DNA of 64,000 nucleotides from Acidobacteria bacterium RIFCSPLOWO2_12_FULL_66_21. Lineage in GTDB: Bacteria > Acidobacteriota > Vicinamibacteria > Vicinamibacterales > 2-12-FULL-66-21. This document shows, in pieces, positions 8,201 through 57,495 of this stretch. A program made the translations under genes and the position numbers. Each line of letters opens with the position of its first letter. Within the stretch, counting starts at the first letter, position 1. The stretch lies in assembly GCA_001767455.1 (NCBI GenBank), contig MELC01000024.1, positions 124,001 to 188,000 of the forward strand. The letters run 5' to 3'. A model generated the notes under the pieces. The model made no database searches. It was given only the letters and a program-made list of their open reading frames with translations, and was not told the origin of the DNA.

Positions 8201-8353
8201 AGTCAACTCCAAATTCCAAACGCCAAACTCCAAAGCCACTCCGAATTCAAAATCTCAAATTCAAACTCCAAACTCCAAACTACCTTTGAAATTTCGAGTT
8301 TGGCCTTTGAAGTTTGGAGTGCCTTTGGAGTTTGGCGTTTGGAATTTGGAGTT
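8201..8353. repeat. Palindromic short-repeat array (CAAACTCCAAATTCC words)
   Basis: The left arm 8205-8242 and the right arm 8316-8353 are reverse complements with one mismatch in 38 positions. Each arm is made of variants of CCAAACTCCAAATTCCAAA. The inner 70 bases continue the same words less regularly. The left end begins AGTCAACTCC, and the right arm runs into the TAA stop of the methyltransferase. It fills the junction between the convergent receptor and methyltransferase genes. Confidence 0.9.
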
Positions 8354-11578: not shown

Positions 11579-11962
11579 AGCTTTCAGCTCTCAGCTCTCA
11601 GCTCTCAGCTCTCAGCGTTCAGCGGGACAAGGCTGATCGCTGATGTCTGTCGTCCCTACCGCCGAGAAAGTACCACAGAAGCTCCCGGCTGGAAGCTGGA
11701 AGCGGGAGCCTGAAAGCTGGAAGCTGGCAACTGGAAGCTGGCAACTGGAAGCTGCCCCATCGTATGGCTGTGGTGGCACCCGGTTTGAATGTCTCAGCCG
11801 ATAGGGGAGTGTAACGGCCCAGGAGCGCCGAAACTCTGACGGCTCAGTTACATAAGTGGTTGCGTGAGGGCTGTTCTGTTGCTAAACTGGCTTCGCTCCA
11901 CTCCTACCGCAGCGGTCGCTTCCCAGCGCAGCCGGTGCGTTAATGTCCCTCACGGAGGACTC
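11579..11962. other. 384-base intergenic region: palindromic array plus D,D-peptidase leader
   Basis: The first part (11579-11756) is a repeat array. CAGCTCTCAG is repeated four to five times on the left, and GCTGGAAGCTGGAAGC / GCTGGCAACTGGAAGC on the right, which is the reverse complement of CAGCTTCCAG words; the halves are imperfect inverted copies. The rest holds a plausible promoter and a roughly 75-base leader for the downstream gene. I see no coding gene. Confidence 0.75.
11860..11888 (+). promoter_or_regulatory. Candidate sigma-70 promoter for the D,D-peptidase
   Basis: TTGCGT (11860-11865), a 17-base spacer and TAAACT (11883-11888) lie 75 bases before the GTG start. Both hexamers deviate from consensus, so this is only a candidate. 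Confidence 0.4.
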
Positions 11963-13066: not shown

Positions 13067-13158
13067 TGAGTTGGTGAGTTGTCTGCGCGAGTCGTCCGTC
13101 GGAGGACTCGCGCAATTCACCAATTCACGAATTCACGACTTCACGAATTCACCAACTT
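13052..13158. repeat. Palindromic short-repeat array (AATTCACGAATTCACC words) with central hairpin
   Basis: The left half has ATTAGTGCATTAGTGAGTTG words. The right half has CAATTCACCAATTCACG repeated, its approximate reverse complement. The centre is a strong hairpin, GCGCGAGTC pairing with GACTCGCGC. The array includes the stop codon of the D,D-peptidase and ends two bases before the stop of the convergent FdhE-like gene. Confidence 0.85.
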
Positions 13159-17070: not shown

Positions 17071-17306
17071 GATAACTTCAAACTACAAACCTCAAACTAC
17101 AAACGCACGTCAAACTACAAACCTCAAACTACGAACCTCAAACTTCAAACTTCAAACTACAAAGTTCAAACTACAAACGGACGTCGAACTACAACCAAAA
17201 AAGCTCAAAGGCGGCGCCTCGAGTCGCATTTTCTGGTTTGGAGTCGTTTGGAGTTTGCAATTTGATTTGCGTTTGGACTTTGCAGTTTGGAGTTTGGAGT
17301 TGACCC
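17071..17306. repeat. Palindromic short-repeat array (TCAAACTACAAACC words)
   Basis: The left half (to about 17190) is a string of TCAAACTACAAACC and CTTCAAACTTCAAAC variants. The right half (about 17240-17304) reads GTTTGGAGTCGTTTGGAG and TTTGGAGTTTGGAGTT, the reverse complement of the same word set. The halves match by word, not base for base. The centre is GC-rich (GGCGGCGCC). It starts right after the trxB stop and ends just outside the mnmA stop. Confidence 0.85.
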
Positions 17307-45826: not shown

Positions 45827-48118
45827 ATGCGCCTGGTCCGCGTCGCCGTTCCCGTGCCCGCGCTCGACGCGCTGACGTATTCCGTTCCGGACGGCGTCGC
45901 GGATCCGCCCGTCGGCGCCCGCGTACTGGTGCCCCTCGGTAACCGGATCATCACGGGCTGCGTGCTGGATTCCGAGTCGAGCGCCGAGCGCCGAGCGCCG
46001 AGCGCCCGGGGCGACAACTCCCAACTGTCAAGCCCCAACCTCCAACTCCAAACTTCAAACTCCAAACTCCAAACGTCCAATGCCGGAATCAAGCCGATCA
46101 TCGAGGTCCTCGATGGCGGGCCTTTTCTGCCGACAGACGTTCTGAAGCTCGCGACGTGGGTATCGAACTACTACGCGTGCGGTATCGGCGACGCGATTGC
46201 CGCTGCCATGCCGCCATGGGCCCTGAAGGGCGTTCGGTCCAGGTTCCGCACGACGCGCGTCGCCGCGCTCACGGTGCAGGGACACGACTCGCGGGACCTG
46301 CGGCTCGGCGCCAGGCAGCGGGAAGCGCTCGACCTGCTTGCGGGCTCGCCTGACGGCATGGACACCGCGGAGCTCGCCGAGCGGGGCATCGGCGCCGCGA
46401 CGCTGCGGCGTCTCGCGTCGCTGGGCCTGGTCCGCCTGTCACGGCGCGCCGTCGAGCGCGACCCGTTCCACCGCGGCGCGATGATGAGCGCCGTGGCCCG
46501 CACGCCCCACACGCTGACGGCGGAGCAGGCGGACGCCTTCGAGCAACTGCGCGAGCTCGTGGCGCGGCAGTCCTTCCAGGCCGTGTTGCTGCACGGCGTC
46601 ACCGGCAGCGGGAAGACCGAGCTCTACCTGCGTCTTGCCGAGGAAGTCCGCCGGCTCGGACGCGGCGTCCTGCTGCTCGTGCCGGAGATCGCGCTCACGC
46701 CGGCGGTCGCGGGTCTGTTTCGCGCGGCCTTCGGCCAGCGGGTGGCGATCCAGCACAGCGGCCTGTCCGACGGCGAGCGTCACGACCAGTGGCAGCGCAT
46801 CCGCCGCGGCGAGGTCGACGTCGTGGTTGGCACCCGGTCGGCCGTGTTCGCCCCGCTCCCTTCGATCGGCCTGATCATCGTCGACGAGGAGCACGACGGC
46901 TCGTACAAGCAGGAAGAGAGCCCGCGCTATCACGGCAGGGACGTGGCGGTCGTGCGCGCGCGCGAGTCGGCCGCGCTCGTGGTGCTCGGCTCGGCCACGC
47001 CGGCGATGGAGAGCTTCCAGAACGCGCAATCCGGCCGCTACACGCTGCTGTCGCTCGAAAGGCGGGTGCTCGACCGCCCGATGGCCGCCGTGCGCATCGT
47101 CGACATGCGCGAGGAGTACGCGGCAGCGGGGCCCGATGTGACGCTCAGCGCGACATTGACCGAGGCGCTCGCCGAACGTCTCGAGCGGCGCGAGCAGGCC
47201 ATCGTGCTGCTGAACCGCCGCGGATTCGCGACCGCTGTGTTCTGCCGGCAGTGCGCCGCGACGCTGGAATGCCCGAACTGCAGCGTGACGCTGACCGTCC
47301 ATCGCGCCGCGCGCCGGGCGCGCTGCCACTACTGCAACTATTCAACGGGGATCCCGAAGACCTGCGCCCACTGCGCGGGTCCGTATCTGGAGCAGACCGG
47401 GTTCGGGACGGAGCGGATCGAGGCGGACATCCGGGAGCGGTTCCCGGCGGCGCGCGTCGCGCGGGTCGATCGCGACACGGTCCGGAAGCGCGGCGCCATC
47501 GCCGGCGTGCTGGAGCGCTTCGCGGAAGGGGAGCTCGACGTGCTCGTCGGCACGCAGATGATTGCGAAGGGACACGACTTCCCGCGCGTGACGCTCGTCG
47601 GCGTGATTTCAGCCGACGTCGGCCTTGGCCTGGCGGACTTCCGCGCCGGTGAACGGACCTTTCAGCTGCTGACCCAGGTGGCGGGGCGCGCGGGGCGCGG
47701 CGAGATTCCCGGCGAAGCGATCGTGCAGACGCTCTATCCGCACCACTACAGCATCCGGCACGCCTGCCGCCAGGACTACCAGTCGTTCTTCGCGGAGGAA
47801 CTGGCGTTCCGCACGGCGATGCGCTACCCGCCGGCCGTCGCCCTCATCAACGTCATCGTCAAGGCGCGCACCGAGCAGGCGGCGATGGAGGACGCCGGAG
47901 CGCTGGCCGGCGCGCTGCGCATCGGCGGCGAGCCTTACCGCGTGCTGGGGCCCGCCCCCGCGCCTCTGAGCCGGCTGAAAGGGGAGCACCGCGCGCAGTT
48001 CTTCATCAAGGGCACGCACCGCACGTCCATGAAGAACGCGCTCGTGACGGTCCTTGCCTCGCGCCCCGAGATTCGGCGACGGACGATCGTGGATGTTGAT
48101 CCGATGAGCGTCCTGTGA
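45827..48118 (+). CDS. priA: Primosomal replication-restart helicase PriA
   Basis: 763 residues. The N-terminal DNA-binding domain (1-140) contains ALTYSVPDG and VLVPLGNRIITGCVLD. Walker A GVTGSGKTELYLRL is near 257, the DEEH box in LIIVDEEHDGSYKQEESPRY near 352, and the zinc-binding cysteines CRQC, CPNC, CHYC and CAHC near 474-515. The helicase motif GTQMIAKGHDFPRVTLVG and a C-terminal domain follow. It reloads the replisome at stalled forks. Oddity: residues of about 45-86 are translated from repeat-array DNA (SNSKLQTSNAG) and look like an in-frame insertion between two strands of the N-terminal domain. Confidence 0.95.
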   Translation: MRLVRVAVPVPALDALTYSVPDGVADPPVGARVLVPLGNRIITGCVLDSESSAERRAPSARGDNSQLSSPNLQLQTSNSKLQTSNAGIKPIIEVLDGGPFLPTDVLKLATWVSNYYACGIGDAIAAAMPPWALKGVRSRFRTTRVAALTVQGHDSRDLRLGARQREALDLLAGSPDGMDTAELAERGIGAATLRRLASLGLVRLSRRAVERDPFHRGAMMSAVARTPHTLTAEQADAFEQLRELVARQSFQAVLLHGVTGSGKTELYLRLAEEVRRLGRGVLLLVPEIALTPAVAGLFRAAFGQRVAIQHSGLSDGERHDQWQRIRRGEVDVVVGTRSAVFAPLPSIGLIIVDEEHDGSYKQEESPRYHGRDVAVVRARESAALVVLGSATPAMESFQNAQSGRYTLLSLERRVLDRPMAAVRIVDMREEYAAAGPDVTLSATLTEALAERLERREQAIVLLNRRGFATAVFCRQCAATLECPNCSVTLTVHRAARRARCHYCNYSTGIPKTCAHCAGPYLEQTGFGTERIEADIRERFPAARVARVDRDTVRKRGAIAGVLERFAEGELDVLVGTQMIAKGHDFPRVTLVGVISADVGLGLADFRAGERTFQLLTQVAGRAGRGEIPGEAIVQTLYPHHYSIRHACRQDYQSFFAEELAFRTAMRYPPAVALINVIVKARTEQAAMEDAGALAGALRIGGEPYRVLGPAPAPLSRLKGEHRAQFFIKGTHRTSMKNALVTVLASRPEIRRRTIVDVDPMSVL
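45967..46083. repeat. Repeat array inside the priA reading frame
   Basis: GAGCGCC is repeated four to five times (45972-46007), followed by CCAACCTCCAACTCCAAACT and CTCCAAACTCCAAACG. The second part is the same word family as the junction arrays at 8201, 17071 and 51371. The total keeps the priA frame open. Confidence 0.85.
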
Positions 48119-48629
48119 GACGCAAGCGGTGAAATGTCGAACGCAGACCGTTAAACGTAGAACGCGAAATCACCAAGGACCGGACATTCTAGGTTCGTCT
48201 CTGTGTAACGTGTCGAGAGATCCAGCGGTCGTGTCCCGCTGCACGCGCCGACGGCTTTCATTGCACGAAGACCACGAAGCTCACGAAGTTCACGAAGACT
48301 GCAAGACAGCAAGACAGAAGAACAGCACGAAGCGGGCGGGAGTACTGATACGGCTGGACCGTCGAGCGCCGGCCACAATCACGCCTGAGGCCGGCGGTGC
48401 AGGACAGCCGGAACCCGCAAATGCAAACAGCTCGGGATCGAATGCTGCTTGCGTTTGCGGGTTCCGACTGTCCTTGCCGCGCTGCGCGCGGCTCGACGGT
48501 TCAGCCCGCTGCGTGAGTGTCTTCGTGACCTTGGTGTCCTTCGTGAGCTTCCTGAAAAGCCGTGGCCTGTCTCAGCGTGGTTCCGGGAGAACCTCGCTGA
48601 ACGAAGACCTAAGTTCTACATTCTACGTT
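48119..48629. repeat. 511-base nested palindromic junction without a supported gene
   Basis: Matching inverted pairs are nested from the outside in. ACGTAGAACGC words (48125-48170) face TTCTACATTCTACG (48611-48630). CACGAAGACCACGAAGCTCA (48264-48300) faces GTCTTCGTGACCTTGGTG (48517-48545). TGGACCGTCGAGCG faces GCTCGACGGTTCAG. CAGGACAG plus GGAACCCGCAAATGCAAA face TTTGCGGGTTCCG plus CTGTCC. The junction is convergent (priA and the M50 protease). Open frames crossing it show no family features. Confidence 0.85.
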
Positions 48630-50019: not shown

Positions 50020-51372
50020 ATGTCCCTGAAACGCGCCTCGGCCGGACCCACGGTCGTGCTTGTCGGCCGGCCCAACGTCGGAAAGTCCACGCTCTTCAAC
50101 CGCATCACGAATTCGCGGCGCTCCATTGTCACGTCCATCGCAGGCACGACTCGCGACGTCATTTCTCTGCCCGCCGAGTGGCAGGGGACCACGTTCACGC
50201 TCGTGGACACCGGGGGAATGTTCGGCGCGAGCGAGGATCCGCTGCACGAGCTGGTGGTGATTGCGGGGCGCCGCGCGCTCGAGACGGCCGACGTTGTCGT
50301 GTTCGTGGTGGACGGCCGGGAAGGGCTCGTGCCAGCCGATCAGGAGATTGCCGCCGGCCTGCGGTCCGTCGCCGTGCCTGTCCTGATGGCGGTGAACAAG
50401 ACCGACGACAAGCGCGCGCGGGGACGGTCGGCCGAGTTCTACCAGCTCGGTTTTGAGCCGGTGGTCGAACTGGCGGCCGAGCACGGCGAAGGCGTCGGGG
50501 ACCTGCTCGACGAGATCATCCAGCGGTTTCCGGCGCGGCGGGGCCTCGGCGAGTCCCCGGACAGGCCCGAACAGACGGCCGTGGCGATCGTGGGACGGCC
50601 GAACGTCGGCAAGTCATCGCTCCTCAACCGGTTGCTGCGAGAGGAACGCTCCATCGTCAGCGACACGCCGGGCACCACGCGGGACACGGTCGACGCGGTC
50701 CTCAAATGGCATCACCGCATCTTCCGCATCGTGGATACGGCCGGAATCAGGCGGGCGGGGCGCGTGGCGCGCAGCGGCCAGCTCGAATCCCTGAGCGTCA
50801 TCCTCGCGCGGCGCGCGATCGAGCAGGCGGATGTCGCGGTGCTCATCGTGGACAGTTCCGAAGGAGCCGCCGACCAGGACGCGACGATCGCCGGCGAAGC
50901 GGAAAAGGCGGGCTGCGGGATCATCATCGCCGCGAACAAGTGGGACCTGATGAAGGGACGCGGCCCGGATTTCTCGAAGGAGTTCGACGACCAGCTTCGG
51001 CAGCAGATGAAGTTCCTCGATTACGCGCCGATCCTGCACATTTCGGCCTCCACCGGGGAACGGACGCCGAAGCTGCTCGAGACGATCGACAAGGTGGCTG
51101 AGGCGCGGGTGAAGCGGATTTCGACCGGCGAGCTGAACCGGTTCATTCAGGCCGTGACCGCCGTGCACCCGCCGGCCAGCCCCGGCAAGCGCGAGGTGCG
51201 CATCATGTATGCGACGCAGAAGGGCGTCGCGCCGCCGACCTTCGTGCTGTTCACGAACATCGCGACAGAGTTTCACTTCTCCTACCAGCGGTTCCTCGTC
51301 AATCGCCTGCGCGAGTCGTTCGGGTTCATAGGCACGCCCATACGGCTGCAGGTCAGGAAGAGGGAACGATAG
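50020..51372 (+). CDS. der: Ribosome-assembly GTPase Der (EngA)
   Basis: 450 residues with two tandem G domains and a KH-like C-terminal domain, the unique Der layout. G domain 1 has GRPNVGKSTLFNRI near residue 13 and VDTGGMF near 64. G domain 2 has GRPNVGKSSLLNRL near 192, DTAGIRR near 241 and NKWD near 307. The KH-like domain begins near 355 with TGELNRFIQAVTA. It is needed for 50S subunit maturation. It is divergent from HU. Its TAG stop is the first bases of the inverted-repeat-bounded element at 51371-51977. Confidence 0.95.
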   Translation: MSLKRASAGPTVVLVGRPNVGKSTLFNRITNSRRSIVTSIAGTTRDVISLPAEWQGTTFTLVDTGGMFGASEDPLHELVVIAGRRALETADVVVFVVDGREGLVPADQEIAAGLRSVAVPVLMAVNKTDDKRARGRSAEFYQLGFEPVVELAAEHGEGVGDLLDEIIQRFPARRGLGESPDRPEQTAVAIVGRPNVGKSSLLNRLLREERSIVSDTPGTTRDTVDAVLKWHHRIFRIVDTAGIRRAGRVARSGQLESLSVILARRAIEQADVAVLIVDSSEGAADQDATIAGEAEKAGCGIIIAANKWDLMKGRGPDFSKEFDDQLRQQMKFLDYAPILHISASTGERTPKLLETIDKVAEARVKRISTGELNRFIQAVTAVHPPASPGKREVRIMYATQKGVAPPTFVLFTNIATEFHFSYQRFLVNRLRESFGFIGTPIRLQVRKRER

Positions 51373-51977
51373 TCAATTCCAAACTCCAAACTCCAAACTC
51401 CAAACTCCAAACTCCAAAGGCACTCCAAACTCCAAAGGCACTCCAAACTCCAAAGGCACTCCAAACTCCAAACGGTTCATTTGCCTTCGGACCTGCGGAT
51501 GATCGCTGCGACGATCTTCATGAGTTCCTCAGCTTCAATAAGCACGGGGTCATGGATCTGCGCGAGGAACCCGGTTTTGCGCAGGATTCGGAGGCGAAAT
51601 CTGGTCTCCTTGAGTTCGCGCAGCGTGATCTTCCTTTTCGCCCACCGGTCACGCTCGCTTGATGCGCTGTCGGCCTCCTCATAGTTGGCCCCGGCCGACG
51701 TCCCGCACCTCAATAGTTGCCCTGAAAGTTCAACCGCGACCGGACCGCGGGTGTGCAGGTACTGCACCAGCCGAACGACCGTGCACCCAAAGAGAAGTAG
51801 CCTTTCGCGCACATCGTAAGGCTTTTTCGGAATGTTCCAATCTGATTCGTCCATGTACCAGCACCGTCCGTGCCACATGCCAGTTGACAAGATCTGATCT
51901 GGATTTTGGAATTTGAACTTTGGAATTTGAATTGTGAAGTGCGTTTGGAGTTTGGAATTTGGAGTTTGGAATTGACT
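51371..51977. mobile_element. Element with inverted array ends and an S23-type ORF (proposed)
   Basis: The outer 35 bases at each end (51371-51405 and 51943-51977) are reverse complements with one mismatch. Both begin AGTCAATTCC, then CAAACTCC-type repeats. The left array runs to about 51475 and includes three copies of CACTCCAAACTCCAAAGG. The right array runs from about 51899. Between them is a single ORF for a four-helix-bundle protein. The ends overlap the stop codons of der on the left and the kinase on the right. There is no transposase. Calling it mobile is inference from structure; what is seen is the inverted ends, the ORF and the same words at other junctions. Confidence 0.55.
51477..51854 (-). 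CDS. Four-helix-bundle protein (S23 / 23S rRNA intervening-sequence family)
   Basis: 125 residues from the ATG at 51854 (MDESDWNIPKKPYDVRERLL); an ATG at 51878 is the alternative. LLLFGCTVVRLVQYLHTRGP, the core LLRCGTSAGANYEEADSAS near residue 50, and KITLRELKETRFRLRILRKT near 75 match the small all-helical S23 family. The family is known from ORFs in 23S rRNA intervening sequences, and its fold resembles the Avd accessory protein of diversity-generating retroelements. The molecular role is unknown, and oligomeric nucleic-acid binding is suspected. Here it is not in an rRNA gene but between inverted repeat arrays, and its TGA abuts the left array. Confidence 0.88.
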   Translation of the reverse strand: MDESDWNIPKKPYDVRERLLLFGCTVVRLVQYLHTRGPVAVELSGQLLRCGTSAGANYEEADSASSERDRWAKRKITLRELKETRFRLRILRKTGFLAQIHDPVLIEAEELMKIVAAIIRRSEGK

Positions 51978-54709
51978 CAGTCCAGGATCTTCCGCCCCAG
52001 GAGAGGCGCCCCGCCGCGGGCGGCATAGAAGCCGTAGAGCGCCATGGCCGCTGCGGCGGCGAGCGTCCATGCGGACGTCACGAAGAACCATCGTCCGGGA
52101 TCGAGGGTGAGCGCGGCCTGGCTGACGAAGAAGCTGAAGAAAAAGTAGACCGATGTCGCGAGCAGGCCGAACCGGAGCACGAGCCAGAGGATAGCGGAGA
52201 TGACGATCGTGCCGATCACCGCGCCGAGCCACCCCGGGCCCGGGCTGTTGCCGAAGCCGCTCGCGGATGTGAACAGGAAGAACAACAGCGCCACCAGCGC
52301 TGTCAGCCACACGCGACGCAGTATCAGCCTGAGAATGACGATCCCGAAGATGCACCACAGCGCGTTGAAGAGCGCATTGAACATCGCGTTGCCCGAGCTC
52401 GCCATGAGATAGCGAAGGCCGTCCAGATCGCTCATGCGGAAACTGATGTTCGCATGCGGCGAATATCCGAACAGCGGCAGGAGCAGCGTGGCGGCGCGCT
52501 CGAGCAGTTCCAGGCCCGCACCGAAGAGACAGCCGATGAGGACGTCGCGTCCGACCTGGGGATCGAAGAAGTCGCCGGAGATCAGGCGCGACCAGGTGAT
52601 CAGGGTCGTCGGCCAGAACCGCCGCACGTAGGGCTCGAGGGCGATGTAGAGGACCCAGGTCACCGCGGCCGACCACAGCGCGGTGCCCTGCCCGCCGAAG
52701 AACCGGCCGATCTCGGTACTGAGAATGGGCACGTGAGTCGCGCCGAGCAGCCACGATCCCAGCGCGACGACGAGCACGGTCGCCGCGAGGCGGAGCGCTC
52801 CGCGGCGATCGCCGCGCCCCTTGCGCCAGTTGTGCCGGGCGACCAGGAGCGCCCCGAACAGCACGGCCATGACGAGGCCCGTCACGATCGCCTCCAGCCA
52901 GCGCGCGGGGCCCGCCACCGCCGTCGCGGGCATGCGCGCCGGCCTCGTCCACGGCGCGATCATCTGGAAGTCCACGACGCGCCCTCGATAGGCGGCCGCT
53001 TCGACGCGCAACCGGAGGTCCGGCCAGTTCGGCATCGGCCCTTCCCAGCCCGCGCGGGCGTCGGAGTACATGCGCGGCGTCCACTCAGGCGGAATCGCGG
53101 TGAACTGTCGCATGTCCAGGCCCGCAGCGTCGAACAGCGCCGGCCATGGAGGGGCAGCGGGCGCGGACGACGTGTCGGGCACTTGCGGAGGAACCGCCAT
53201 GAACTGGAGCAGCCGTCCCTCCGTGTCGAGTTGAAGGGCGGTCATGCCCGAGATCGTATGGGGAGGATCGGAGTAGCTGACGCCCGATCGATCGCCGGTC
53301 GGCACGAGCGTCGTCGGGCTGGTGCGCCGCCAGTAGTACACGAGGGGAGGCTGGCCGCTGGCCAGTCGCGCGCGATCGAATGCTCCGCCATGCGTCGTCG
53401 CGTACGAATAGTAATCGGATGCGGGCGAAAAGCCGGCCGCGGTGTCCGCCGGCGCGTCGACATAACCGAGCCGGTGCGCAATTTCCGTTGCCCGCTCGGC
53501 GAGGACCGCGGGCGGCTTCGACGCGGGTATCAGGTTCAGAACCGACGTACGCCCGGCGGCCGCCGCGATTCCCAGGAGACACACGAGCGTGGCGGCCAGC
53601 GCGGCCACAGCGGTCAAGGGCGAGAGCGCACTCGAACTGCCGGCGGCGGCGACCATCTCCGGCGACGGCGTTTCCCCCGCCGCGAGCGCGGCGGCGAGCG
53701 GATCGCCGCCCGGCAGCGCCGCCGCGACCGCCAGCGCCGACGCCGGCCGGTGCTCCGGCGCGCGTTCGAGGCAGCGCAGCACGGCGCGATCGATCGCGGG
53801 ATCGAGGTCGCGGACGACTTCCGATGGCGGCGGAATGCCGCCTTCCTCGCGCTGCCGCACGATCTCCGCGATCGTCGTCCCCTCGAGCGCGCGGCGGCCC
53901 GTGAACAGCTCGTACAGCACGAGCCCCAGCGCGTAGATATCGCTGCGCGCCGTCACTTGCTGGCCGGCCATCTGTTCCGGCGCCATGTAGGCCGGCGTCC
54001 CGGCGTGAATCGCTTCGCCGATCGCGCCCGCGAGGCCGAAGTCGGTGATGCGCACCTTGCCCGCGCCGTCGATCATCACGTTGGCCGGCTTGAAATCGCG
54101 ATGGACCACCCCGCGCTCGTGCGCGGCCGCGAGCCCGGCGCACATCTGGCGCGCCAGTTCGAGCGCCCGGTCCGTCGGGAATCGGCCGATGCGGCGGAGC
54201 AGCGACGACAGATCTTCGCCGTCCACGTACTCCATCGACAGGAAGGTGTGCCCGTCCACTTCGTCGATGTCGTACACGCGGCAGACGTGCGGGTGCGAGA
54301 CCTGCCGCGCCATGCGCACTTCGGTATGCAACTGCGTCAGGCGGGCGGGATCGCGATCGACATCGAGCGGCAGGAACTTCAGCGCGACCGGCTGTCCGAG
54401 CTTCAGATCGTCAGCGCGGTACACCTCGCCCATCCCGCCGCGCCCCAGGCGGCCGACGATCCGGTACCGGCCGCCGAGCAGCGTGCCCGGCGGAAACCGC
54501 CCGTGGTCGATCGCGCCCGACGATGACAGCCAGCCGGTTGCGGGCGTCGCTGCCTTCCCGCTCGACGGTGCGCTCGTCGCTCCAGGCGCCATCCGCGTCT
54601 CGTCGTCGCCCGGGCGCGTGGCCACGGCACCGCTCAGCGGTGTACGGCACTGCGGACACGCGCCGAGGGCGTCAGGGAACTGCGTCGAGCAGGTGCGACA
54701 AGTGGCCAT
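51977..54709 (-). CDS. Membrane-anchored Ser/Thr protein kinase
   Basis: 910 residues. A zinc ribbon (CRTC and CPQC within the first 22 residues) and a linker precede the Hanks-type kinase domain (about 90-345). This has the Gly loop LGRGGMGEVYRADD, VALKFLPLD with the ATP-binding Lys, catalytic HRDFKPANVM, DFGLAG and AYMAPEQMAG. A transmembrane helix lies near 390, then a periplasmic or linker domain, then about seven further hydrophobic segments to the end. The start ATG at 54709 shares one base with the stop of the upstream paralogue. HRDF in place of HRDL is a mild deviation and should be active. Targets are unknown. Confidence 0.9.
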   Translation of the reverse strand: MATCRTCSTQFPDALGACPQCRTPLSGAVATRPGDDETRMAPGATSAPSSGKAATPATGWLSSSGAIDHGRFPPGTLLGGRYRIVGRLGRGGMGEVYRADDLKLGQPVALKFLPLDVDRDPARLTQLHTEVRMARQVSHPHVCRVYDIDEVDGHTFLSMEYVDGEDLSSLLRRIGRFPTDRALELARQMCAGLAAAHERGVVHRDFKPANVMIDGAGKVRITDFGLAGAIGEAIHAGTPAYMAPEQMAGQQVTARSDIYALGLVLYELFTGRRALEGTTIAEIVRQREEGGIPPPSEVVRDLDPAIDRAVLRCLERAPEHRPASALAVAAALPGGDPLAAALAAGETPSPEMVAAAGSSSALSPLTAVAALAATLVCLLGIAAAAGRTSVLNLIPASKPPAVLAERATEIAHRLGYVDAPADTAAGFSPASDYYSYATTHGGAFDRARLASGQPPLVYYWRRTSPTTLVPTGDRSGVSYSDPPHTISGMTALQLDTEGRLLQFMAVPPQVPDTSSAPAAPPWPALFDAAGLDMRQFTAIPPEWTPRMYSDARAGWEGPMPNWPDLRLRVEAAAYRGRVVDFQMIAPWTRPARMPATAVAGPARWLEAIVTGLVMAVLFGALLVARHNWRKGRGDRRGALRLAATVLVVALGSWLLGATHVPILSTEIGRFFGGQGTALWSAAVTWVLYIALEPYVRRFWPTTLITWSRLISGDFFDPQVGRDVLIGCLFGAGLELLERAATLLLPLFGYSPHANISFRMSDLDGLRYLMASSGNAMFNALFNALWCIFGIVILRLILRRVWLTALVALLFFLFTSASGFGNSPGPGWLGAVIGTIVISAILWLVLRFGLLATSVYFFFSFFVSQAALTLDPGRWFFVTSAWTLAAAAAMALYGFYAARGGAPLLGRKILD

Positions 54710-57495
54710 CAAAAATCGCCAGGCGCCGCGTCGCGTACGGCGCCGCGGCGCGCTAGATAGCAGGCGCCGAGACCCATGGCCGTCACGACGGCCAGGGGCC
54801 AGAGTCCTGCGACGCCGTACCACGCGGACAGGCGCAGCGTGAGCGGCGCGCGCAACAGCACGAAATGCGTCGCCAAGGCGCCCATCGTCGCCAGCAGTCC
54901 GAACCGGATGATCGTCGTGACGAAGATCGCGATGATCCCGCCGCCGATGACCAGGTCGAGGATTGGCGTGCCGGCGGGGAACATGCCGGAGAGCGCCACC
55001 GGTGTGTAGACGATGATGCCGACGCCGGCGGCCAGCCACCGCCGCTTCAGCCAGATCAGCAACGCCACGATCCCGACGACGCCCAACATGGCCGACTGCA
55101 CCGCATCTCCGAGCCGCGCGGTGAGATATGCGAGCATCTCGCGCGTGCCAAGCAGCAGCGTGGCGTCGAACGTGATGGGCATCGGCTCCGGGCGTCCGGC
55201 GAGCGGGGGTATGACATTGTGCACCGCGAAGAGCACCGTCATCGCCATCCCCGCCGACACCCCAATCATGACATCGGCGCCAACCCGCGGATCGTTCCAC
55301 CGGCCGGCAACCAGGCGCGTCCACCCGATCAGGCTGTCGGGAGAGTAGCGGCGCACGTATGGCTCGAGGCCCAGATAGGTCAGCCATATGAGCGCGCCGT
55401 CGAACAGCCCGCCGCCGATGGCGGAGAACAGGCGCTGGACATCCGCGCTGAGCGGCATCACGTGCGGCCGAAGGACCCAGGCGATCATATTGGCGGCGAC
55501 GAGCAGCGTGGCGGCAAAGAACGCACCCCGGCGGTCGCCGCGGCCGAGCCGGAGATTGCGGCGGGCGAGGATCGCGCCCGCCAGCATCAGCCCGGGCATG
55601 ACCATCGCCGCGATGCCCGACATGAGGACGTTGAACAACGACGGCGCGATCGGCGCCAGGCGCGCCGATCGGGTCCACGGTCCCGCAATCACGAGCGAGA
55701 CGAGCTTGCCCGCGTACGCGGCGGCTTCGAGGCGCACCACTTGATCCGGTTGCTCGGGCAGGCGTCCTTCCCAGGCCATGCGCGTGTCGGCGAACGTGAC
55801 TGGTACCCACGTCGGCGTCACAGGGCTGAACGACCCGTAGGGGAGACCCGCAAGCTCGAAGACCATCGCCCAGTCGACGGGCTTGGGAGCGGCTTGCGCG
55901 CCCTGGATCGGCTCGGGCACCGCAACGAACTCGGACAACCGTCCCGATCCGTCCACGACCGTGATAGTCATGCCGGCCGCGTTCAGCGGCGGATTCGTAC
56001 CCGCGACTGGGTTCTCGTTACCGAGGGGTACGAGCGCGCGGGGGCTCGTGCGGTACCACAGGATGAGCGCCTCCGGCCGATTCCTGCCGAGCCGGCTCCA
56101 GCGATCGCGCGCGACGGTGGTTCTCTCGACATAGCGTGCGTAGTCGAGCGAGAACCCCATTCCGCGGGCGGCGGACGCGGCGGGGGTGGGCTCGTACCCG
56201 AGCCGCGCGAGCGCCTCGACGGCGCGATCCTGCAGCGCGTCGGGAGGTTTCGGCACGGGAAGCCGGTTGATCAGCATCACACGCTGGTAGAGCGCGAGCA
56301 CCGCGACGAGCGACACGACAATCCACGCCGCCGCCGCCATCACACGGCGCCGGGAGACCGCCTCGATTCCGCCCGCGGCCGCGACCATCGCGGGCGAGGG
56401 GGTCTCGCCCGCGGCGAGCGCGGCAGCCAGGGGATCGCCCCCGGGCAGCGAGGCGGCCACCAACAGGGCCGACGCCGGCCGCTGCTCCGGTGTCGGCCGC
56501 AGGCAGCGGAGGAGGGCGCGTTCGATCGCGGGATCGAGATCGCGCACGATAGCGGTCGGCGGCGTGATGCCCGACTGCTCGCGCTTGTGGATCAGCTCCG
56601 CCAGGTTACTTCCGTCGAGGGCGCGTTGTCCCGTGAAGATCTCGTACAGGACGAGGCCAAGCGCGTAGATATCGCTGCGGGTCGTGACCTCGCCGCCCGC
56701 GAGCTGCTCGGGCGCCATGTAGGCGGGCGTCCCGGCCCGGATCGCCTCGCCGGAAACGCCCGCCAGCCCGAAATCCGTGATGCGGGCCTTGCCGGTGCCG
56801 TCGATCATCACGTTGGCGGGCTTGAGATCGCGGTGCACGACGCCGCGTTCGTGCGCCGCGGCCAGGCCCGCGCAGATCTGCCGGGCAATCTCGAGCGCGC
56901 GATCCTGCGGGAAGCGCCCGACCCGCCGCAGCAGCGAGGCGAGATCCTCACCGTCGACGTACTCCATCGAGATGAAAGTGTGCCCCTCGATCTCGTCGAT
57001 GTCGTACACGCGGCAGACGTTCGGGTGCGAGACCTGCCGCGCCATGCGCACTTCGGTATGCAACTGCGTCAGGCGGGCGGGATCGCGATCCACGTCGAGC
57101 GGCAGGAACTTGAGGGCGACCGGCTGTCCGAGCTTCAGATCGTCAGCGCGGTACACCTCGCCCATCCCGCCGCGGCCCAGGCGGCCGACGGTGCGATAGC
57201 GGCCGCCGAGCAGCGTCCCCGGTGGAAACCGTCCGTGGTCGATGTCGTCTGACGACGAAAGCCACCCGCTCGACGTGCGGGAGCGGTGCTCCTGGGGATG
57301 GGATGGGGAAGACGGCGTGAGCCGTGTCGGCGCGTCCGAGCTGACCTCGCCGAAGCCGCGAGGCGAAGGCGGGGAGTTGTCGAGAGCGAGCCTAGTGATG
57401 GTGTCAGCCGACAAGGCGGCGCCGCAGCGCGGGCATGCAGTGACGCCGGCGTCGAGCTCGGCCGCGCACGAGGGACACGGAATGTGGGCCGCCAG
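54709..57495 (-). CDS. Membrane-anchored Ser/Thr protein kinase, paralogue, unusual start
   Basis: 928 residues if started at CTG 57495. The first ordinary-type start, TTG 57414, would cut off a zinc ribbon (CPSC and CPRC, 14 residues apart) that the paralogue downstream also has, so translation probably begins at CTG 57495 or a nearby ATT. The kinase domain has LGRGGMGEVYRADD, VALKFLPLD, HRDLKPANVM, DFGLAG and AYMAPEQLAG. One transmembrane helix (MAAAAWIVVSLVAVLALYQ) and a multi-helix C-terminal membrane domain follow. The kinase domains of the two genes are nearly identical and the C-termini much less so, which indicates tandem duplication. It is divergent from merR. Confidence 0.85.
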   Translation of the reverse strand: MAAHIPCPSCAAELDAGVTACPRCGAALSADTITRLALDNSPPSPRGFGEVSSDAPTRLTPSSPSHPQEHRSRTSSGWLSSSDDIDHGRFPPGTLLGGRYRTVGRLGRGGMGEVYRADDLKLGQPVALKFLPLDVDRDPARLTQLHTEVRMARQVSHPNVCRVYDIDEIEGHTFISMEYVDGEDLASLLRRVGRFPQDRALEIARQICAGLAAAHERGVVHRDLKPANVMIDGTGKARITDFGLAGVSGEAIRAGTPAYMAPEQLAGGEVTTRSDIYALGLVLYEIFTGQRALDGSNLAELIHKREQSGITPPTAIVRDLDPAIERALLRCLRPTPEQRPASALLVAASLPGGDPLAAALAAGETPSPAMVAAAGGIEAVSRRRVMAAAAWIVVSLVAVLALYQRVMLINRLPVPKPPDALQDRAVEALARLGYEPTPAASAARGMGFSLDYARYVERTTVARDRWSRLGRNRPEALILWYRTSPRALVPLGNENPVAGTNPPLNAAGMTITVVDGSGRLSEFVAVPEPIQGAQAAPKPVDWAMVFELAGLPYGSFSPVTPTWVPVTFADTRMAWEGRLPEQPDQVVRLEAAAYAGKLVSLVIAGPWTRSARLAPIAPSLFNVLMSGIAAMVMPGLMLAGAILARRNLRLGRGDRRGAFFAATLLVAANMIAWVLRPHVMPLSADVQRLFSAIGGGLFDGALIWLTYLGLEPYVRRYSPDSLIGWTRLVAGRWNDPRVGADVMIGVSAGMAMTVLFAVHNVIPPLAGRPEPMPITFDATLLLGTREMLAYLTARLGDAVQSAMLGVVGIVALLIWLKRRWLAAGVGIIVYTPVALSGMFPAGTPILDLVIGGGIIAIFVTTIIRFGLLATMGALATHFVLLRAPLTLRLSAWYGVAGLWPLAVVTAMGLGACYLARRGAVRDAAPGDF

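Follow-up and report, generated by a model that had tools for sequence, protein, structure and literature searches.

Between two convergent protein genes of Acidobacteria bacterium RIFCSPLOWO2_12_FULL_66_21 (the source genome) lies a 607-bp unit in which a single S23 open reading frame (ORF) is flanked by two arrays of a 7-bp word, one inverted relative to the other. We asked whether this unit is an element of the same kind as the S23-bearing intervening sequences of 23S rRNA, as had originally been predicted, and whether the ORF-less arrays found elsewhere in the same DNA are its relatives. Unless another locus is named, coordinates refer to the window, the stretch of 64,000 nucleotides that was analyzed. 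The left neighbor is the GTPase gene der (50020–51372, plus strand), which has orthologues in relatives, and the right neighbor is a Ser/Thr kinase-like ORF (51977–55810, minus strand). Relatives share the conserved C-terminus of this ORF at the corresponding junction. The der stop codon (TAG, 51370–51372) overlaps one end of the unit by 2 bases, and the kinase stop codon (TGA, complement of 51977–51979) overlaps the other by 1 base. Therefore, the unit fills the gap exactly, in line with the original prediction, and the S23 gene (51477–51854, minus strand; 125 aa, beginning MDESDWN) is, as had also been proposed, the sole plausible gene between the arms.

The ends of the unit had been described as reverse complements of 35 nt with one mismatch. 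This pairing was confirmed (51371–51405 vs. 51943–51977, 97% complementary), but 35 nt did not hold as the extent of the arms, which are degenerate heptamer arrays of ~105 nt on the left and ~78 nt on the right. The left arm (51371–51475) is built of CCAAACT words on the 3′ side of the S23 ORF, starting ~2 nt past its stop codon, and the right arm (51900–51977) is built of TTTGGAG and TTTGGAA words on the 5′ side. Within these arms, arrays broken up by GGCA were detected at 51375–51473 and 51900–51973, with the outer 35 nt serving as terminal inverted repeats and longer pairing of 48–56 nt at lower identity. Matches of the TTTGGARTTTGGA type numbered 28 in the window vs. 0.01 expected from shuffles. 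When the 607-bp unit was folded as RNA, the arms paired around the ORF (z = −7.5 vs. shuffles). No target-site duplication was visible at 51371/51977. A chance inverted repeat was ruled out by the word excess over shuffles together with the frequency of arms at other S23 loci relative to controls, which is described below.

The enclosed ORF is a member of the S23 four-helix-bundle family. It exceeded the curated cut-offs of both PF05635 (E = 3.6e-9, 37.2 bits vs. 33.8) and TIGR02436 (E = 2e-15, 56.9 bits vs. 24) and matched PDB 2rld (E = 3e-11). The canonical S23 proteins closely resemble PDB 2gsc (XCC0516), and the family has two solved structures. To our knowledge, no catalytic site or domain is known in S23. 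In the solved Xanthomonas structure, the protein forms a ring of five four-helix bundles, as described in PMC4990558 and in a reference title listed in PMC3936711, and we conjecture that a ring with several binding faces would suit a target made of tandem words. Phage carriage of the unit was ruled out, as a phage collection gave no match, and so was identity as a defence system, given that there was no PADLOC match.

The closest known counterparts of the unit are the 23S intervening sequences of Leptospira and Coxiella, in which a long terminal stem likewise encloses an S23 ORF within ~430–600 nt; they have tandem heptamers adjacent to the ORF and are patchy and thought to be horizontally acquired (PMC4990558). 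The Coxiella element spans 428 nt. Its ends pair into a 28-bp stem that RNase III cuts, and GACAGAT heptamers stand in tandem within the 5′ portion of the element, directly upstream of the S23 ORF; the GACAGAT copy number varies among strains, and the protein is thought to be unexpressed (PMC4990558). Our unit has the S23 ORF within complementary ends that form a long stem, and these Coxiella heptamers strengthen the parallel. However, no rRNA was found at the window locus or at 13 other S23 loci, so the unit lies outside any rRNA gene and is not itself a 23S intervening sequence. It also differs in lying between protein genes, in its longer arrays, and in having cognate ORF-less arrays elsewhere. 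The original proposal of a stem-bounded S23 element of the intervening-sequence kind living between protein genes is therefore supported, and the unit may represent the more general form of what is known from 23S rRNA.

This architecture was not peculiar to one locus. PF05635 was present in 42 of 60 relatives from the same order, at 0–17 copies per genome. When left flanks were scored against reverse-complemented right flanks (threshold ≥18), inverted arms were detected at 59 of 71 S23 loci of the order compared to 1 of 26 PIN-gene loci in the same genomes. Against control windows displaced by 1100 nt, the figures were 57 of the 69 testable loci vs. 0 of 139. Direct rather than inverted flanking repeats were also considered and reached the score at only 7 of the 71 loci. 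Beyond the order, a scan of species genomes yielded 80 named S23 loci, to which ten plasmid loci, mostly cyanobacterial, were added; the groups that contributed loci to the 80 included Acidobacteriota, Bacteroidota, Firmicutes, Planctomycetota, Chloroflexi, Pseudomonadota, CPR, and the archaeal Methanophagales. Across phyla, 54 of 80 S23 loci with full flanks had inverted arms vs. 1 of 159 shifted controls. Inverted short-word arrays at most S23 genes had been predicted from the single window, and this was the case both in the order and across phyla. Depending on the set and threshold, about 15–30% of S23 genes had no detectable arms, and the idea that these are rRNA insertions was rejected, as no rRNA occurred at any that were tested.

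The arms also share properties beyond their inversion. Among 158 measured loci, the word period was 7 in 132, 8 in 22, and 9 in 3, and it may follow the S23 protein subfamily; loci L018 and L041 have a period of 9, and L020, L231, and L257 a period of 8. Read on the coding strand, the arm upstream of the ORF was G-rich at 134 loci and C-rich at 21 (p = 2e-21), in a tally that predates the removal of a few duplicate loci. Words showed a weak common consensus with one G almost invariant (3.38 bits vs. 2.90 for letter-shuffled words, with a maximum of 3.08). The inverted flanks at one S23 locus, L045, were exceptionally long, with a local alignment score of 184.5.

Within the source genome, a PF05635 search returned the window locus and three further places. 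All four adjoin heptamer arrays, each with its own word: GCTGGAA at L001, AGCTCGC at L004, where the gene is degraded, and GCGATTG at L002, where the array is visible on one side only and the contig ends after the gene. Clear inverted pairs were present at all of these loci except L002. Arrays without an S23 gene were far more numerous. In 464 kb, we counted 130 short-period arrays (2 in shuffles), and many of the 130 were ORF-less hairpins in which the loop measured 8–91 nt. In the window, ORF-less arrays included a short-loop hairpin with the same CCAAACT word as the der–kinase unit (8205–8353), an inverted array of AACTACA/TTTGGAG words with a 67-nt loop (17074–17301), a lone array of a CCAAACT-type word (46015–46080), and an inverted AGCTCTC/GCTGGAA array (11579–11754), the latter word being that of L001. 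Other genes inside long-loop inverted arrays were sought in the same 464 kb, but the candidates at L130 and L134 were flanked by self-contained hairpins rather than by split arms.

The words of these arrays were frequently those of resident S23 genes. Words of the four S23 loci recurred at 9, 9, 8, and 4 other sites in the source genome, compared to a mean of 0.66 sites for 118 S23 words taken from other genomes, and 31 of 87 arrays matched a resident S23 word exactly vs. 3.5 expected. Across 15 genomes, 49 of 182 arrays did so vs. 5.6 expected from foreign words. The suggestion that ORF-less arrays are non-autonomous relatives of the S23 element thus held in part: word reuse supports it, but about two thirds of the sampled source-genome arrays had no exact match to a resident S23 word. 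Window arrays of AATTCAC and GTCAAAGTCCAA words, for example, had no S23 partner in the source genome. Hairpins of AATTCAC/GTGAATT as an 8-mer occurred at 13113–13155 and at two further places in the source genome (L117, 8123–8256; L126, 9000–9148) and are either orphan arrays or arrays whose partner has been lost. Palindromic elements in which an S23 ORF is absent were seen at 48264–48555 and at L126 14560–14826; their arms are CACGAAG 9-mers, and they contain nested inverted repeats. At a contig end (L116, 1–860), a composite tandem array combines TCCCGCTG words with CACGAAG words.

Between genomes, similarity of words rose with similarity of the S23 proteins, modestly overall (Mantel rho 0.18, p = 0.001, duplicates removed). 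The effect was strong for close relatives: the five S23 pairs above 0.7 protein similarity shared 6.4 of 7 bases vs. 3.64 for all pairs, and the word AGTGACG was common to an S23 locus in the source order (L008) and one in Chthoniobacterales (L196), which is a case of sharing across phyla. Arrays also co-occurred with S23 genes. In a test only partly corrected for phylogeny, 14 S23-free genomes contained 3 arrays in 526 kb vs. 172 in 1.04 Mb from 19 S23-positive genomes (p = 5e-5). The contrast ran in the same direction within families f5, f6, f7, and f11, with none in one f7 genome, G017; three S23-positive genomes (G010, G017, and G018) had zero arrays in the 20–40 kb sampled. The density test excluded periods 6 and 9, at which coding repeats are a source of contamination, and with these omitted, coding-sequence periodicity was rejected as an explanation for the arrays.

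If such elements move, orthologous junctions should differ in occupancy. Several genomes of the same family have the convergent der–kinase junction without the S23 element, the gap being short or holding other small repeats. The expectation of an empty site in sister genomes was borne out as far as vacancy goes, but not to the base, because these relatives belong to different genera and their non-genic bases do not align. In one of them (G010, L084), a AAAACGGGGACAGTCCCCATTTCCG hairpin occupies the gap held by the S23 element in the window. In two genomes of one genus (L079 and L080), GTAGGCCGGGTCTTCAGACCCGG-type hairpins lie 3′ of der, with several copies in L079.

Differences in occupancy were also found in Xanthomonas, where 31 species were compared. 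The accC–accB gap, which lies inside the accBC gene pair, contains an S23 element in 27 of them, one arm abutting the accC start codon. The three non-carrier junctions that were read (G087, G094, and G076; L371–L373) instead hold an ORF-less GGGACCC hairpin, a switch of word at one site. The S23 gene at this site occurs as two alleles, with GGGATTC or GGGAATC arms, and the genome-wide GGGAATC/GGGATTC ratio followed the allele (p = 0.0013), a result that is supportive rather than conclusive because the alleles probably also follow phylogeny. The four species without the gene had fewer such arrays (0–112 vs. a median of 138, p = 0.008). With dN/dS at ~0.13, the S23 protein at accC–accB is kept by purifying selection.

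A different S23 gene, with GGGGACC or GGGACCC arms, occupies the carA–carB gap in four Xanthomonas species, and non-carriers with a readable junction have another gene in the gap. These four carriers ranked highest among the 31 species for matches to its arms (34–49 vs. 3–30). Three carriers had 20, 31, and 32 exact GGGGACC pairs. The count was 5 in G087, which has GGGACCC as its own word, 0–5 in the remaining species, and 16 in G076, a non-carrier. For G076, the PF05635 search was empty despite these 16 matches, which require that a partner gene was either lost or missed and are consistent with recent loss. In at least one carrier (among L374–L377), carA appears to run into the heptamer arm, so insertion seems to have altered the carA C-terminus. 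In this genus, orthologous junctions gain and lose S23 elements, and the anticipated differences between occupied and unoccupied sites were observed at der–kinase in relatives and at accC–accB and carA–carB in Xanthomonas, with no base-precise empty site, target-site duplication, or transposition event recovered at these three junctions.

Several known repeat systems resemble this one in part. In REP/RAYT systems, a protein gene is flanked by inverted repeats that also occur as many ORF-less intergenic copies, and RAYTs are Y1 transposases with fixed palindromes. The S23 unit similarly has a gene flanked by an inverted repeat that recurs without ORFs in the genome, but its only gene is PF05635 rather than a Y1 (HUH) transposase, its heptamer-array word is plastic, and S23 has no known catalytic domain. 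Also similar are the intergenic heptamer repeats GGGAATC of Xanthomonas and GGGGA(C/T)T of Nostoc, which the available part of PMC4692102 treats as G-quadruplex-forming. These are 7-bp tandem arrays, intergenic and near ORF ends, and in Xanthomonas often in inverted pairs; source-genome arrays have this same combination of tandem 7-bp units, intergenic position, and frequent inversion. Moreover, GGGAATC, left unexplained in that portion of the paper, is the word of the accC–accB S23 arms. No protein partner is named there, and the link to S23 is made here. The TAACTGA repeats of Beggiatoaceae are also intergenic heptamer arrays, for which a repeat-binding protein was considered as a mobile element (PMC4679880). 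This likeness concerns the repeats alone, and the TAACTGA arrays are nearly all direct, unlike the inverted S23 arms (PMC4679880).

Taken as a whole, we consider it likely that the 607-bp unit represents a very widespread stem-bounded S23 element, of which it is a single copy. In this reading, the S23 protein is the partner of the word that its element carries, and the 23S intervening sequence is a special case. Within such an element, a long stem holds the S23 gene in its loop, and both arms are arrays of the same 7-bp (occasionally 8- or 9-bp) word, one inverted relative to the other. The word differs between S23 lineages and agrees among closely related S23 genes. Arrays that have this word but no ORF would be the dispersed, non-autonomous counterparts of the element, and a 23S intervening sequence would be an S23 element inserted in an rRNA gene. 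We infer that the pentameric S23 protein may recognize the word of its own element, in DNA or RNA that is single-stranded or folded into a hairpin, and that this recognition could let the element and its cognate arrays spread and homogenize in intergenic gaps, perhaps through host replication, repair, or RNA-processing enzymes. By analogy with 23S intervening sequences, RNase III would cut the stem in transcripts. We are more hesitant about a further step, which we rate somewhat below an even chance, namely that S23 proteins are the trans-acting partners of pan-bacterial mobile or self-propagating elements with plastic heptamer ends that seed their own word without a transposase or reverse transcriptase.

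An alternative is that intergenic heptamer hairpins arise independently of S23, by replication slippage or otherwise, and that S23 genes are passengers that land in safe loops and inherit the local word. This could explain why ORF-less hairpins far outnumber S23 loci and why S23 arms share words with other arrays in the same genome, as insertion into existing hairpins would produce. Still, S23-free genomes of the order are nearly without arrays, including in contrasts within families f5, f6, and f11, and where S23 proteins are alike, their words are shared between genomes and sometimes between phyla (L008/L196). Word abundance in Xanthomonas follows carriage of the matching S23 gene, accC–accB hairpins with and without S23 differ in word, and the arms show a strong bias in polarity with respect to the ORF, all of which make the passenger explanation unlikely. 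Less likely still, in our estimation, is that S23 is a domesticated regulator that binds heptamer hairpins in transcripts and controls RNA stability or termination, with spread that is slow and selected rather than selfish. Purifying selection at accC–accB, the position of that site within accBC and against the accC start codon, and the regulatory role proposed for the Beggiatoaceae repeats (PMC4679880) would fit this explanation. However, words vary by lineage and positions vary even among members of one family, which is not the pattern of a conserved regulon, and the genes are multi-copy and patchy, so we find the regulator explanation improbable.

The least probable explanation, to which we attach very little credence, is that S23 acts like Avd, the accessory protein of diversity-generating retroelements, while a reverse transcriptase copies array RNA. 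One canonical S23 protein does show weak similarity to the NCBIfam Avd model (E = 2e-4, below the cut-off). By contrast, the window protein had no match to this model, and an RVT_1 search had no match in the source genome or in 11 of 17 other genomes tested; these 11 were all S23-positive, and two were single-contig. Therefore, a retroelement mechanism cannot be general and is refuted as an obligatory one. Array-rich genomes need no reverse transcriptase, and the pairing of reverse transcriptase with an Avd partner that marks these retroelements was not found for the S23 unit.

Returning to the stem-bounded S23 element, its parts were already known separately, as S23 proteins, intervening sequences, and orphan heptamers. 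In the open-licence literature, we found no report that connects them as one element family or links S23 to heptamers beyond those of Coxiella, and there is a substantial chance that the S23–heptamer element deserves its own class. With it, PF05635 gains a proposed role and partner; this family is very common and structurally solved but functionally uncharacterized. Families of short repeats dispersed in bacterial genomes, so far unexplained, also seem to be accounted for by the element. If the coupling between protein and word is real, bacteria would carry a widespread kind of element that propagates repeats and for which neither a transposase nor a reverse transcriptase is known, and the nature of intervening sequences, a long-standing question, would become testable. 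If S23 lineages each seed arrays of their own word, 23S intervening sequences and several orphan heptamer families would be explained together. The element also connects literatures that have been separate, on rRNA intervening sequences, on the heptamers of Xanthomonas, Nostoc, and Beggiatoaceae, and on S23 genes in cas operons. Such cas loci containing S23 genes are on record in the available part of PMC3936711, and these genes may simply be array-flanked insertions like the one on a plasmid of Anabaena sp. 90 (L277, 1989–2357), where an S23 gene lies between cas6 and cas4 and is flanked by inverted AGGTGAC arrays.
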